This document shows positions 3,581 through 10,144 of a stretch of DNA of 64,000 nt, piece by piece. The notes beneath the pieces were generated by a model that saw only the letters and a program-made list of their open reading frames with translations, had not been told where the DNA came from and did no database searches. The position numbers were made by a program, and so were the translations under genes. The number at the start of each line of letters is the position of its first letter. Positions within the stretch are counted from its first letter, which is position 1. This DNA is from Microbacterium sp. zg-Y1090 (GTDB lineage Bacteria; Actinomycetota; Actinomycetes; Actinomycetales; Microbacteriaceae): NCBI RefSeq assembly GCF_030246945.1, contig NZ_CP126742.1, positions 1,302,001 through 1,366,000 of the forward strand. The letters are read 5' to 3'.

Positions 3581-4717
<1,137 letters not shown>

Positions 4718-4742
4718 CCCCCCACACTTCCAGGAGCACATC

Positions 4743-5126
4743 ATGGCCGACCTCACCTCCCTGCACTACACCGCCGAGCACGAGTGGATCGCCCTCGACG
4801 GCGACGTCGCCACCATCGGCATCACCGACTACGCCGCCGACCAGCTCGGCGACGTCGTCTTCGTCGATCTGCCCGCCGTCGGATCGACTGTCACCGCCGG
4901 CCAGGTGTGCGGCGAGATCGAGTCCACCAAGTCGGTCGGCGAGCTGTACGCGCCCGTCGACGGCGAGGTCGTCGAGATCAACGACGACGTCGTCGCCGAC
5001 CCGTCGAGGGTCAACAGCGACGCCTTCGGCGACGGCTGGCTCATCAAGCTGCGCGTGGCCGACGTCCCCGTCGACGGCATGCTCGACCGCGACGGCTACC
5101 TCGCGCTCACCGGCGGCGAGGCGTGA
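4743..5126 (+). CDS. gcvH: Glycine cleavage system H protein
   Basis: This 127-residue lipoyl carrier shuttles the aminomethyl group between the P, T and L proteins. The lipoylated lysine is Lys63 in [11 protein letters not shown]. The N terminus [10 protein letters not shown] and the later [11 protein letters not shown] match the family throughout. The start is ATG 4743 after the SD sequence AGGAG. Its TGA overlaps the gcvP GTG in a GTGA junction, pointing to translational coupling. The dihydrolipoamide dehydrogenase (L protein) is not in the window. Confidence 0.97.
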
Positions 5127-7993
5127 GCGGGGCCTTCGCCGGGCGCCACATCGGCACCGACGCCGCCGCACAGCAGAGCATGCTCGCCGCGCTCGGCTAC
5201 GACAGCGTCGCCGCGCTGGTCGAGCGCGCCGTTCCCCGCTCGATCCACGCGCAGCCGCGGCCCACGAGCGACATCCCGGTCGCGGCGACCGAGGACGAGG
5301 CGCTGCGGGAGCTGCGGGAGCTCGCGGCGGCGAACCGTCCGGCGAAGGCGATGATCGGGCTGGGCTACTACGACACCCACACCCCGGCGGTCATCCAGCG
5401 GAACGTCTTCGAGAATCCCTCGTGGTACACCGCCTACACGCCGTACCAGCCGGAGATCTCGCAGGGTCGGCTCGAGGCCCTCATCAACTTCCAGACGATG
5501 GTGACCGACCTCACCGGGCTCGCGACGGCCAACGCGTCGATGCTCGACGAGGCCACCGCCGTCGTCGAGGGGATGCTCGTGGCACGGCGGGCCACCCGTG
5601 GCGCCGCCGACACCTTCCTCGTCGACGCCGATGCGCTGCCGCAGACGAAGGCGCTGCTGGCGCATCGGGCCGAGGCGCTCGGCGTCCACCTGGTGGAGGT
5701 CGACTTCGCCCAGGGGCTCCCCGACGACACCGACACCTTCGGCGCGTTCGTGCAGTATCCCGGCGCGACGGGACGCGTATGGGACCCGAGCGACGTCATC
5801 ACCGCCGTGCACGCCCGCGGCGGCCAGGTCGTCGTGGCCGCCGACCTGCTCGCGCTCACCCTGCTGCGCTCGCCCGGGTCACTCGGCGCGGACATCGCCG
5901 TGGGGACGACCCAGCGCTTCGGCGTGCCGCTCGGATTCGGCGGTCCGCACGCCGGCTACATGGCGGTGCGCGCCGGCCTCGAGCGTCAGCTGCCCGGCCG
6001 GCTGGTGGGGGTCTCGCAGGATGCCGCCGGGCACCCGGCCTACCGCCTGGCGCTGCAGACGCGAGAGCAGCACATCCGCCGCGAGAAGGCGACGTCGAAC
6101 ATCTGCACCGCCCAGGTGCTGCTCGCCGTGATGGCATCCATGTACGCGGTGTACCACGGACCCGACGGCCTCCGCCGCATCGCGACCGACGTCGCCCGCA
6201 AGGCCGAGGCCCTCGCCGGCGAGCTGCGCGGGTACGGGCTCACCCTGGCATCCGACGCCTTCTTCGACACCCTGCGCGTGTTCGTCCCCGGCGACGCGGC
6301 CCGCGTGATCGAGCGTGCGCGCTCGCGCGGCTACCAGCTGTTCTGGGCGTCGGACGCGAGCGTCGGGGTGTCGATCGACGAGACCACGACCGCAGCCGAC
6401 CTCGCCGCCGTGGCGTGGGCGTTCGGCGCGGCGGAGCAACCCGGTGCCGGGATCGGCTTCGCGGATGCCGAGCCGCTGGCGGGCGTCGACGCTTCGCTGC
6501 ACCGGCGGGAGGAGTTCCTCACCCACCCCGTGTTCACGAGCCACCACTCCGAGACGGCGATGATGCGCTACCTCAAGCACCTCGCCGATCGCGACTACGC
6601 GCTGGACCGCGGCATGATCCCGCTCGGGTCCTGCACGATGAAGCTCAACGCGGCGACCGAGATGGCGGCGGTGTCGTGGCCGGAGTTCTCGCGCGTGCAC
6701 CCGTTCGCCCCCGCCGACGACGTCGCCGGATACCTGGCGATGATCGAGCAGCTCGAATCCTGGCTGGCCGAGGTGACCGGCTACGACGCGGTGTCGCTGC
6801 AGCCCAACGCCGGCTCGCAGGGCGAGCTCGCGGGGCTGCTCGCGATCCGCGGCTACCACCGGGCCCACGGCGACACGCAGCGCACGGTGTGCCTCATCCC
6901 GTCGTCGGCGCACGGGACGAACGCGGCCTCCGCCGTGCTGGCGGGCATGTCGGTCGTCGTCGTGGCCTGCGACGAGGCGGGCAACGTCGACCTCGACGAC
7001 CTGCGCGCGAAGATCGCCGCGCACGCCGACCGGCTCGCCGCGCTCATGATCACCTACCCCTCCACGCACGGGGTGTACGAGCACGACGTGCGGGAGATCA
7101 CCCAGGCCGTGCACGATGCGGGCGGCCAGGTGTACGTCGACGGCGCGAACCTCAACGCCCTGCTCGGCTTCGCGCGTTTCGGCGACCTCGGCGGCGACGT
7201 CTCGCACCTGAACCTGCACAAGACCTTCGCCATCCCGCACGGGGGTGGCGGACCGGGCGTCGGGCCGGTGGCCGCGAAGGCGCACCTCGCGCCGCACCTG
7301 CCGTCGCACCCGATGTCGCAGCGCGCCGACCACGCCGGCGGCTTCGTCTTCGACGGCGGACCGGTCTCGGCGGCGCCGTACGGGTCGGCATCCATCCTGC
7401 CGATCTCGTGGGCGTACGTGCGGATGATGGGCGCGGAGGGCCTGCGGGAGGCGACCGGGGCCGCGGTGCTCGCGGCGAACTACATCGCGCTGCGGCTGCG
7501 CGAGCACTACCCGGTGCTGTACGCGGGGGAGGGCGGGCTCGTCGCGCACGAGTGCATCCTCGACCTGCGTCCGCTGCGGGAGGCCACCGGGATCACCGTC
7601 GACGACGTCGCCAAGCGACTCATCGACTACGGCTTCCACGCGCCCACGATGTCGTTCCCGGTCGCGGGGACGCTCATGGTCGAGCCGACCGAGTCGGAGG
7701 ACCTGGCCGAGATCGAGCGGTTCATCGAGGCGATGATCGCGATCCACGCCGAGGCGCACGCCGTCGCGGCCGGGCGCTGGCCGGCATCCGACAACCCGCT
7801 GGTGAACGCACCCCACACCGCGCAGTCGGTCGTCGCGGGGTCGTGGGAGCACCCCTACTCGCGCGAGGAGGCGGTCTACCCCGTGCCCTCGCAGGTGCGC
7901 ACGAAGTACTGGCCGCCGGTGCGCCGCATCGACAACGCCTACGGCGACCGCAACCTCGTGTGCGCCTGCCCGCCCCCCGACGCCTTCGCGTAG
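5123..7993 (+). CDS. gcvP: Glycine dehydrogenase (decarboxylating), P protein
   Basis: P protein is the pyridoxal-phosphate enzyme that decarboxylates glycine and loads the aminomethyl group onto GcvH. It is 956 residues, the size of the fused single-chain type. It begins with GRHIGTD and carries the cofactor lysine (Lys700) in [19 protein letters not shown] 5123 is chosen because it makes the common GTGA overlap with gcvH and places the conserved N terminus at the right spot. The same frame is open upstream through gcvH but shows no homology there. It is the last gene of the riboswitch operon; the palindrome starting 14 bases after the stop could terminate it. Confidence 0.96.
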
Positions 7994-8006
7994 CCCGCCG
8001 GGGCGC

Positions 8007-8073
8007 TGAGACGAATCCGGACGGCCGAGACCCTGGGTATCACCCGCGGTCTCGGCCGTCGGTCTTCGTCTCA
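8007..8073. repeat. 67-bp palindromic repeat, left copy
   Basis: Three nested perfect stems are visible: TGAGACGAA (8007-8015) with TTCGTCTCA (8065-8073); ACGGCCGAGACC (8021-8032) with GGTCTCGGCCGT (8048-8059); and GGGT with ACCC around the centre. The copy at 9157-9223 has the same length and matches at 56 of 67 positions. This copy lies between the convergent gcvP and AbiEi-like genes and includes the last codons of the latter. It could serve as a terminator in both directions. Confidence 0.85.
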
Positions 8074-9044
8074 TGGGTGGCGGCGGCCGGCGCAGTCAGC
8101 GCGCGGCGGAGTGAGAAGAGGGCGGCGGTGTCTTCGGGCGCCTCGGGGTGCAGGCCGGCGCCGATCAGGATGCCGCGCAACGGTGCGGCGGGCACGGCAT
8201 CGTGCCATCCCCAGTGGACGACCGTGCGCACGTGCCGACGCAGTCGTGCATCGCGCGCACGTTGGCGGGCGATGACGTCCTGCGCCGGACCTAACCGGCC
8301 GTCGTACTTAATTCCGCCGTCGCATTCGCCGGCGACCGATGCTGGTTCCCACAGCATGTCGCTGCGATCGTGGCCCCCGTCGCTCGTTCGGAAAGAGACC
8401 TGGAGCGTGGCTTCCGGGAAGCCGAGCCACTCGATGACGGCACGGCTCACGCTCTCGAGCGCGGTCTCCGCCAGCCGGTTCGCCCGAGTCAGCGCCCATC
8501 GCGCGACGGCGCGCCCCCGCTTACTGATGCGCTGCTCGTTGCCCTCGCGCAAGGCGGCAGCCCGGAGCGAGGGGTCGGTGCGCAGGGCGGCATCGGCGAC
8601 GGAGAGTCCGATCGCCCTGTGCCGCGACCGGGCCAGATCGACGGCGGTGTCGAGGATGCCCGTCACGAGCAGCCCGCCGACCTCGAGGATCTCGCGTTCG
8701 CCGCGGTGGGTGTGCACGCGGATGCCGGAGGCCAGGCGCGAGCGGCCGAGCGGATGCTGCAGCACGTGGACGACCATCGGGTCGCCGAACACCGGCAACC
8801 CCACGAGGGCGGCGGCCGACTCGTGGCTGAACACCGCATCGGGGTAGCCGAGTGTCACCGCGTGGACGCGCGCGAGGTACCTGTCCCAGGGAGCGAGGTC
8901 ATGCCAGGCTTCCGCCGGCGCATAGACGCCCGGCCTGATGCGCGCGAGTTCGCCGCGCGCGATGGCGCGTTCGGGGTGGGGAACCTCCGCAGTGCGCAGG
9001 AGCGGGATCGGAGCGGGCCGGGGGCCGGTGAGCTGGAGCGGCAT
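8040..9044 (-). CDS. Orphan AbiEi-antitoxin-like / nuclease-fold hypothetical protein
   Basis: The 334-residue product has an N-terminal winged-helix region resembling AbiEi-type antitoxins (motifs ARGELARIRPGVYAP and VFSHESAAALVGLP). Its C-terminal region carries a D...ExDGxxKY pattern (SDMLWE, then GECDGGIKYDG, about residues 226-245), reminiscent of PD-(D/E)XK nucleases such as the Vsr/DUF559 group. No AbiEii-type toxin is adjacent, so a toxin-antitoxin pair is not supported. The ATG at 9044 is preferred because CAGTGT lies six bases upstream, the leaderless pattern seen elsewhere here. GTG 9089 is possible. The gene is bracketed by two related palindromes and its stop lies inside one of them. 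Function unknown. Confidence 0.7.
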   Translation of the reverse strand: MPLQLTGPRPAPIPLLRTAEVPHPERAIARGELARIRPGVYAPAEAWHDLAPWDRYLARVHAVTLGYPDAVFSHESAAALVGLPVFGDPMVVHVLQHPLGRSRLASGIRVHTHRGEREILEVGGLLVTGILDTAVDLARSRHRAIGLSVADAALRTDPSLRAAALREGNEQRISKRGRAVARWALTRANRLAETALESVSRAVIEWLGFPEATLQVSFRTSDGGHDRSDMLWEPASVAGECDGGIKYDGRLGPAQDVIARQRARDARLRRHVRTVVHWGWHDAVPAAPLRGILIGAGLHPEAPEDTAALFSLRRALTAPAAATHETKTDGRDRG

Positions 9045-9156
9045 CCGGCAACACTGCCGGGGATGCGTCGCCGGCGGTGTCGCAATCACCCCCCGTTCGG
9101 GACAACTCGCGGCTCCCCACCGCTGTGCAGGAGCCCGCGCCGACCGCCCGGCCCCG

Positions 9157-9223
9157 TGAGACGAATGCGGGCGGACGAGACCGTGGGTGGCACCCGCTGT
9201 CTCGGCCGTGAGAATTCGTCTCA
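9157..9223. repeat. 67-bp palindromic repeat, right copy
   Basis: TGAGACGAAT (9157-9166) pairs with ATTCGTCTCA (9214-9223). GGACGAGAC (9173-9181) pairs with GTCTCGGCC (9199-9207) with one mismatch, and GGGTG/CACCC closes the centre. It has the same length and nested layout as the left copy, with 11 differences. Several differences are not compensated within the stems, so the copies have drifted. It lies 30 bases past the CPBP gene stop and about 110 bases upstream of the AbiEi-like start. Confidence 0.85.
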
Positions 9224-9253
9224 GCGACCATGGCAGCGACTATGGCCGCGGGG

Positions 9254-10051
9254 TCAGCGCACGGGGGCGAAGACGGCGGGCCAGAGGGCGGCGGCCAGGG
9301 GGTAGCCGACGAACGAGACCACATCGAGGATCGTGTGCGCGATCACGAACGGCATGACGCGCCCCCACCGGCGGTAGCACCACCCGAACACCACACCCAT
9401 CGCGAAGTTGCCGATGATGCCGCCGAAGCCCTGGTACGCGTGGTACGCCCCGCGCAGCGCCGCGGCGGCGAGGATGATCGACCACCACCCCCACCCGAGC
9501 CGGCGCAGCCGGTCGTAGAGCCAGCCGAGCATGATGACCTCCTCCAGCAGCGCCGCGCGCACCGCGGCGAACAGGAGGATGGGCACCGTCCACCACGCGG
9601 CATCCAGGGGGGATGCCACGACCGCCACCGAGATCCCCAGCAGGCGGCCCACGGCATACAGCGCCAGACCGGGGATGCCGATGATCGCGGTGACCAGCAC
9701 GCCGCGGCCGAGGTCGCCCCCGAACCGGCGGAAGTCCAGCCCCATCCGCCGCAGCGCGTTGGTGCCCGGCTCCCAGAGCAGGTAGACCACGAGGGCGACC
9801 AGCGCCAGGTCGAACACGATGTCGAGCACCTGGTACAGCGCGTCCCAGATCGCCGCCGCGTCGCGCGACGGGTTCAGCTGCGTCTGCTGGCGGCCGAGCG
9901 GGGTGGGGGACAGCAGGCTGCGCACGAGCGACAGCAGCGAGTACAGCGCCGACTGGCCGAGCGTGATCGCCAGCACGATCGCGATCTCCCACCACAGGCG
10001 TGCGCGCTGGGCGGGGGTTGCTCCGGAGGCGGTCGGACTGGGAGCGGTCAC
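9254..10051 (-). CDS. CPBP family intramembrane metalloprotease
   Basis: This 265-residue multi-pass membrane protein has the CPBP (Abi/CAAX-protease-like) signatures in order: LLEEVIMLGWLYDRLR, RGAYHAYQG, and a last motif PFVIAHTILD. The paired Glu and the His residues form the active site in this family. Substrates of bacterial members are mostly unknown; some process peptides or confer bacteriocin immunity. GTG 10051 is chosen because CAATCT sits exactly six bases before it. An in-frame ATG at 10123 would add a non-conserved 24-residue extension. It is divergent from oppA. Confidence 0.82.
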   Translation of the reverse strand: MTAPSPTASGATPAQRARLWWEIAIVLAITLGQSALYSLLSLVRSLLSPTPLGRQQTQLNPSRDAAAIWDALYQVLDIVFDLALVALVVYLLWEPGTNALRRMGLDFRRFGGDLGRGVLVTAIIGIPGLALYAVGRLLGISVAVVASPLDAAWWTVPILLFAAVRAALLEEVIMLGWLYDRLRRLGWGWWSIILAAAALRGAYHAYQGFGGIIGNFAMGVVFGWCYRRWGRVMPFVIAHTILDVVSFVGYPLAAALWPAVFAPVR

Positions 10052-10115
10052 CTTGTCAGATTGCCACACGTCGGCCGCGGCGGGTAAAGAGCATGTAACG
10101 CTTTGCGTCGACCTT

Positions 10116-10144
10116 TTGGTCATCTGTGATCAGGTGCCTATCGT
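10116..10144 (+). promoter_or_regulatory. Promoter of the first oligopeptide transporter operon
   Basis: TTGGTC (10116-10121) and TATCGT (10139-10144) are separated by exactly 17 bases. The transcript would carry a leader of about 65 bases ending in the strong SD AGGAGGA before oppA. The -35 is part of a small palindrome, GACC-TTTT-GGTC (10110-10121), a possible but unproven operator. Confidence 0.6.

Follow-up and report, generated by a model that had tools for sequence, protein, structure and literature searches.

Passages of PMC8049555 and PMC3733652 describe REP/RAYT systems as a gene passed on vertically and in many cases bracketed by palindromes, which are dispersed through intergenic regions with a bias towards the 3′-ends of genes. 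The parts of PMC3733652 that deal with TIRtrons report TIRYT genes bounded by their own terminal inverted repeats; the paralogues of a genome have specific repeats, and some of these repeat families are dispersed. The main text of that REP paper (PMC3733652) contains no word beginning with 'Actinobacteria'. According to part of PMC7319586, the binding sites of AbiEi-type antitoxins are 23-bp inverted repeats that lie upstream of the antitoxin genes themselves. The locus analysed here lies in a 64,000-nucleotide stretch of Microbacterium DNA (the window) and consists of a gene for a predicted nuclease bracketed by palindromes. It probably represents a domesticated gene-plus-palindrome partnership that works in the manner of REP/RAYT with an unrelated enzyme.

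The palindromes and the gene they bracket

The left near-palindromic element (8007..8073, no strand assigned) begins 13 bp beyond the stop codon of gcvP, and the right one (9157..9223, likewise without a strand) lies 30 bp beyond the stop of a gene for a CPBP protein. Both are 67 bp long and are identical at 56 of 67 positions, which bears out an earlier note on this DNA that had described two palindromes of equal length around a single gene. Symmetric positions are complementary in 27 of 33 pairs in the left element and 26 of 33 in the right, and the ends are nearly symmetric (TGAGAC...GTCTCA). GAGAC cores occur at 8008-8012 and 8027-8031 in the left element, mirrored at 8049-8053 and 8068-8072, and at 9158-9162 and 9177-9181 in the right, mirrored at 9199-9203 and 9218-9222. 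Folded as plus-strand RNA, the elements reach −51 (left) and −41.3 kcal/mol (right), with z scores of −9.8 and −6.1, and 0 of 200 shuffles folded as well. Rfam yielded no match for these elements or for five representative loci.

The nested stems proposed in the earlier note are better interpreted as a short motif that occurs four times, with two copies 19 bp apart in each arm. Among 138 palindromes from 77 loci, 75 contained an internal direct repeat offset by exactly 19 bases (1.3 expected from shuffles); the remaining offsets in the tested range of 8 to 26 gave 1 to 4 cases each against 1.2 to 2.0 from shuffles. Each such element therefore consists of four copies of a ∼9-bp motif, the two arms being inverted. 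An alignment of 66 elements (A4, seven of them of other sequence types or from the pairs of other genomes) contained 32 symmetric pairs, of which 26 had changed in both members, and 85.7% of cells were paired (34.5 to 45.3% for slid partners). Neither value was reached by any of 500 shuffles; these shuffles keep the kinship between copies, and related copies can inflate the result. Pairing peaked at the motifs and dropped in the spacers, to about 0.60 to 0.67 at mid-spacer, a profile biased upward since the 138 elements were chosen for palindromy. As the spacers are paired too, the symmetry reaches past the motifs, which would fit an intermediate in hairpin or cruciform form, or the copying of one arm from the other.

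The bracketed gene is on the minus strand at 8040..9044 and encodes 334 aa from its likely start; the open reading frame as listed spans 8040-9089 (349 aa), and the start at 9044 agrees better with the family alignment. The stop codon (8040-8042) falls inside the left element, as previously noted, so that the final 34 coding bases belong to it, and the right element lies upstream of the gene, 112 bp from the likely start. The top fold matches of the protein are AbiEi and Vsr-like nucleases: residues 12-189 of the model are predicted to adopt an AbiEi-like fold, and residues 192-299 a Vsr/I-Bth0305I-like nuclease domain. This agrees with the AbiEi-like N terminus and the D...ExDGxxKY C-terminal pattern recognized at the outset. 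The conserved residues of the nuclease domain are E197, D229, E240-x-D242-G-x-x-K246-Y247 and R264, and the putative catalytic ones are invariant or almost so across 49 diverse family members (alignment A3; 85 of 90 family proteins have an open frame longer than 270 aa). In these 49 sequences, Pfam recognized AbiEi_4 alone, in 11 members. No Y1/HUH transposase domain was found in the family by Pfam, or in the window protein. NCBIfam holds no family for the window protein, and several of its database relatives are named AbiEi antitoxin or regulator. A Pfam Transposase_20 match with an E-value of 0.039, below the cut-off, and two weak matches, the only ones from a PDB sequence search, were judged to be due to chance.

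Both neighbours are conserved. To the left lies gcvP (glycine dehydrogenase; 4784..7993 as listed, plus strand; TIGR00461), whose family match begins at residue 121 of the listed frame. To the right lies the gene for a CPBP (Rce1-like) membrane protease (9254..10123, minus strand; PF02517). A gcvT-gcvH-gcvP glycine cleavage cluster occupies 3581-7993, directly left of the palindrome-gene unit.

Matched flanks at family loci and dispersed copies

A member of the gene family is present in 87 of 99 sampled genomes of the genus, identified as Microbacterium through named relatives in databases, and, among the best candidates (up to 11 per genome), in 147 of the 196 genomes sampled from the class. 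The 90 family loci of the genus were reduced to 86 by dropping four that lacked full flanks (L030, L040, L046, L125). The left and right flanks matched each other, with a local score of at least 30, at 79 of the 86 loci; among the controls, such matches were seen for 15 of 686 shifted pseudo-genes and for 65 of 1500 cross-locus pairs. Seven loci fell below the threshold (L037, L039, L049, L099, L102, L111, L148). For 49 of 61 loci, the own downstream partner was the best match among all loci. These figures support the suggestion in the earlier note of a gene-plus-repeat unit resembling REP/RAYT. The note had also considered that close relatives might carry the gene without the repeats; this is seldom so. 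Among the 30 best orthologue loci, 19 are flanked left and right by elements of the window's own type, and most of the remaining ones have either a different matched pair or one palindrome. Of three paralogues examined in the window's own genome, L130 barely reached a score of 30, L306 gave a partly low-complexity match and L305 gave none. The gene at L037 (G017, C2) has an in-frame stop, lacks a flanking pair and lies near a long poly-G run; its genome still contains 10 strand-wise element matches.

Outside the genus, the flanks matched at 19 of 24 loci (17 inverted, 2 direct), compared with 31 of 552 cross pairs. Such flanks were seen in other actinomycete families, and in Jiangella they are inverted terminal repeats; the window repeats, being palindromic, are ambiguous in orientation. 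In four remote genomes, 30 loci drawn from 47 family matches entered the test and one was too short; 18 of the remaining 29 passed, some of which look tandem-repeated (L285 and L289, for example), and 11 failed. Plasmid records gave two matches to the family in 72,556, both weak and with less than 80% coverage, and phage records gave none in 50,697. At four loci outside the genus (L160, L163, L165, L174) the upstream flank is coding-like and resembles, by eye, the end of an MshC/CysS-type gene; this shared stretch suggests that there, too, the locus is fixed.

A pattern search of the own genome returned 19 half-site matches, and the reversed control pattern returned none. With a covariance model made from ten copies, 46 strand-wise matches were obtained, corresponding to 23 elements in this 3.07-Mb genome (G000); two lie within the range of the window, in keeping with the observation that it holds no third copy. 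The same model detected 19 elements in the related genome G031 and 23 in G025. Gene calls made with a crude ORF and GC3 method placed 14 of the 23 own copies between convergent genes, eight between co-directional genes and one between divergent genes, often with a stop codon within tens of bases; the background, taken from the 64-kb window alone, was 8 convergent pairs of 44 neighbouring gene pairs. By these crude calls, a neighbouring gene points its 3′-end at 22 of the 23 copies, from one side or both (in one case from more than 1 kb away), and one copy lies inside a predicted frame. Element doublets with a distance of about 0.7 to 1.25 kb are seen repeatedly. The same elements bracket one ordinary gene in the own genome (L192, C1:922548-923838; by eye, its translation resembles aminodeoxychorismate lyase) and one in G025 (L209, C18:347658-348926; by eye, a CorA-type transporter). 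The idea that the bracketing of a gene in a single genome is special in itself was rejected, since doublets in G000, G025 and G067 hold ordinary genes.

This placement raises the explanation that the repeats are dispersed bidirectional terminators or RNA-stabilizing hairpins, kept for convergent transcripts, and that the gene is flanked by coincidence or for insulation. The excess of convergent sites, the 3′-ends facing nearly all copies, the strong hairpins and the positions largely kept between species would all suit it, and the earlier note had named terminator-like repeats as the plain alternative. Its account of the placement was right, and many copies are indeed scattered at 3′-ends; the strong association with the gene family is, however, left unexplained, as are the tracking of the protein by the palindromes and the private types of paralogues described below. 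The T-tract type of terminator had 0 matches at 7900-9400. Actinobacterial terminators may lack a T tract, and termination could still be a secondary function. As the primary explanation it is considered rather unlikely.

Private types, inheritance and concerted change

Six sequence types of palindrome were tested, and each has dispersed copies. Half-sites of the type flanking the gene of G093 were matched 37 times in G093 itself, twice and weakly in G027, and nowhere in seven further genomes. The type flanking the G071 gene gave 36 matches in its own genome and between 0 and 7 in each of eight others. In G067, a second family gene sits between two sites of the G071 type, and seven such sites coexist with window-type elements (at least 52 strand-wise matches, or at least 26 elements). 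The type of a paralogue in G054 had five matches there, one in G012 and none in seven others; the Jiangella-type end had 11, 15, 1, 9 and 11 in five Jiangella genomes and none in five others; the G110 type had 13 in G110, eight in G129 and none in six others. The window type itself was present in all 19 genomes with a best protein E-value of at most 7.3e-80 and in 29 of the 80 others (19/47 plus 10/33). Genomes G028, G049 and G062 have 20, 8 and 20 strand-wise window-type matches and no close orthologue of the gene, which speaks against strict pairing; loss of the gene, another cognate or orphan elements are possible reasons.

At 27 loci with a CPBP neighbour, the similarity between palindromes correlated with that between the bracketed proteins (r 0.73) more than with that between the CPBP neighbours (0.44). 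The partial Mantel r was 0.66 given the CPBP neighbour (0 of 999 permutations as high), while the reverse partial was 0.15 (37 of 999), a single neighbour protein being an imperfect control for phylogeny. The palindrome sequence thus appears to follow the bracketed protein. Gene and palindromes almost certainly form a co-evolving unit, and this co-diversification makes it very likely that the protein binds its palindrome.

Binding alone could also mean that the protein is a regulator which autoregulates through the upstream palindrome and acts elsewhere through the dispersed copies, its nuclease domain being incidental. The four-motif architecture suits protein binding, and AbiEi-type antitoxins offer the precedent of upstream inverted repeats (part of PMC7319586, as above). 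Such an operator system would not account for the second copy at the stop codon, nor for dispersed copies that lie past 3′-ends rather than at promoters (one of 23 is between divergent genes), and it fits poorly with putative catalytic residues that hardly vary among diverse members. It is therefore given little probability.

The family gene adjoins gcvP, the CPBP gene or both at 26 of 29 other loci and so occupies a fixed place; the gene itself seems not to be moving in Microbacterium, and the unit looks domesticated rather than mobile. At least one flank identified a positional counterpart in G031 or G025 for 18 of the 23 own elements; none was found in these genomes for those at 410869, 1648973, 1923466, 2608185 and 2682621. 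With the more distant G067, both flanks are shared in 11 pairs for G000, 13 for G031 and 17 for G025. As judged from these comparisons, the positions of the gene and of the elements are mostly vertically inherited. No target-site duplication was evident by eye, and no base-precise empty site was found, the two candidates in G031 being strongly diverged. In the own genome, two elements surround a 203-aa gene (L198, C1:2549399-2550177). At the corresponding site in G031 (L226) there is a single element, and its flanks match the outer flanks of the G000 pair; G025 (L213) has a listed counterpart for the first element alone. Loss of that gene from G031 by recombination between elements is possible.

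In G067, the elements are more like one another than like their positional counterparts in other genomes. The mean identity between elements within G067 was 0.856, compared with 0.741, 0.724 and 0.678 for orthologous pairs with G000, G031 and G025 and 0.721, 0.732 and 0.703 for non-orthologous pairs with the same genomes; elements not 67 bp long were dropped (2 of 23 in G000, 1 of 23 in G025), and 24 of the at least 26 in G067 were used. Within G067, spacer identity was 0.852 (0.604 at orthologous G031 positions), motif identity 0.96 (0.951) and centre identity 0.727 (0.629), and 12 of 13 G067 elements were on average nearer to their siblings than to their orthologues. The elements of G067 thus appear to have evolved in concert at old, shared positions. 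For G000, G031 and G025, within-genome identity (0.752 to 0.780) was, as a set, not above the orthologous values (0.759 to 0.818); homogenization is apparently clear in G067 alone of the four genomes compared. Concerted change could also stem from selection following the specificity of the protein, with no cutting involved.

The lack of homogenization in three of the four genomes is among the points that favour a decayed transposon with MITEs, in which the enzyme would now be inactive and the likeness of elements within a genome a relic of past bursts. The inverted terminal repeats outside Microbacteriaceae, the dispersed solo ends and the near absence of plasmid carriers and absence of phage carriers among the records searched fit it as well. 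The conserved putative active site argues against it, as does homogenization in G067 at positions common to other species; nor was a build-up of same-type gene copies noticed in any genome examined. This relic hypothesis is hardly probable.

For the preferred partnership of gene and palindrome, a cut-and-convert mechanism can be proposed. The AbiEi-like N-terminal part would read the ∼9-bp motif, present four times per element, and the Vsr/homing-endonuclease-like domain would nick or cut at or near the element, either as a duplex or as an extruded hairpin. Repair from another copy would convert the cut one and, rarely, seed a new one. Such conversion would keep the element population uniform, letting the elements track drift in protein specificity; dispersed copies would survive mainly right after stop codons and may secondarily serve as bidirectional terminators. 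That the predicted nuclease does act on the palindrome, homogenizing and rarely spreading its copies, is given an even chance. A broader proposal is made more tentatively: a class-wide, selfish and then domesticated family might combine a Vsr/homing-endonuclease-type nuclease with an AbiEi-like DNA reader and maintain private four-site palindromes by cut-and-convert, enzyme and target drifting together into a sequence language of their own in each species and paralogue. REP/RAYT would then be matched by a second solution of independent evolutionary origin.

Comparison with known systems

The AbiEi fold of the window protein is common to the type IV toxin-antitoxin system AbiE and to Rv2827c. 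Unlike these, the window gene has no adjacent gene for an AbiEii nucleotidyltransferase toxin (its neighbours are gcvP and the CPBP gene), and its product has an additional C-terminal nuclease domain. The Vsr-like nuclease fold is shared with Vsr and with the EDxHD homing endonuclease I-Bth0305I, but the window gene is bracketed by its presumed target rather than inserted in it. The TnsA protein of Tn7 works with TnsB, C and D, whereas gcvP and the CPBP gene are what adjoin the window gene. Terminal inverted repeats, inverted in 17 of the 19 matched among the 24 loci outside the genus, recall insertion sequences and MITEs. The GC hairpin followed by a T tract that marks intrinsic terminators was not found in the region searched.

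If many members of the family are palindrome-partner nucleases, their annotation as AbiEi antitoxins or regulators misleads; a large set of repeats would also gain a candidate enzyme. With matched protein-site pairs, of which a genome sometimes has several, direct tests of specificity, of concerted evolution and of the domestication of mobile elements become possible; if the cut-and-convert family is real, they amount to a natural set of matched nuclease-site pairs. No report of this gene-palindrome pairing was found in the open-access literature (most subscription papers, and preprints, lay outside the scope), which points to an enzyme-repeat partnership undescribed so far.

TIRtrons are similar in having genes with their own repeats, different repeats for paralogues and dispersed copies, and different in that TIRYT genes encode HUH tyrosine transposases, a domain not found in the window family. 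Compared with REP/RAYT, an AbiEi fold and a Vsr-like nuclease replace the HUH/Y1 tyrosine transposase, and a 67-bp element with four motifs 19 bp apart replaces a GTAG-tagged unit of 20–40 bp. The unpaired GTAG/CGTC end tag of REPs is absent; the CGTC near the ends of the window copies is paired and is missing from other types. As no HUH/Y1 domain was found, the unit is not a member of REP/RAYT or of the TIRtrons. The likeness to REP/RAYT is nonetheless one of organization: a gene of the window type flanked by palindromes (79/86 loci of the genus), palindromes that are also dispersed (23 own copies), and a family gene vertically inherited at a fixed locus beside gcvP and/or the CPBP gene (26/29 other loci). 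The pairs described here thus offer a comparison for the question of what benefit systems of the REP/RAYT type bring to their hosts.
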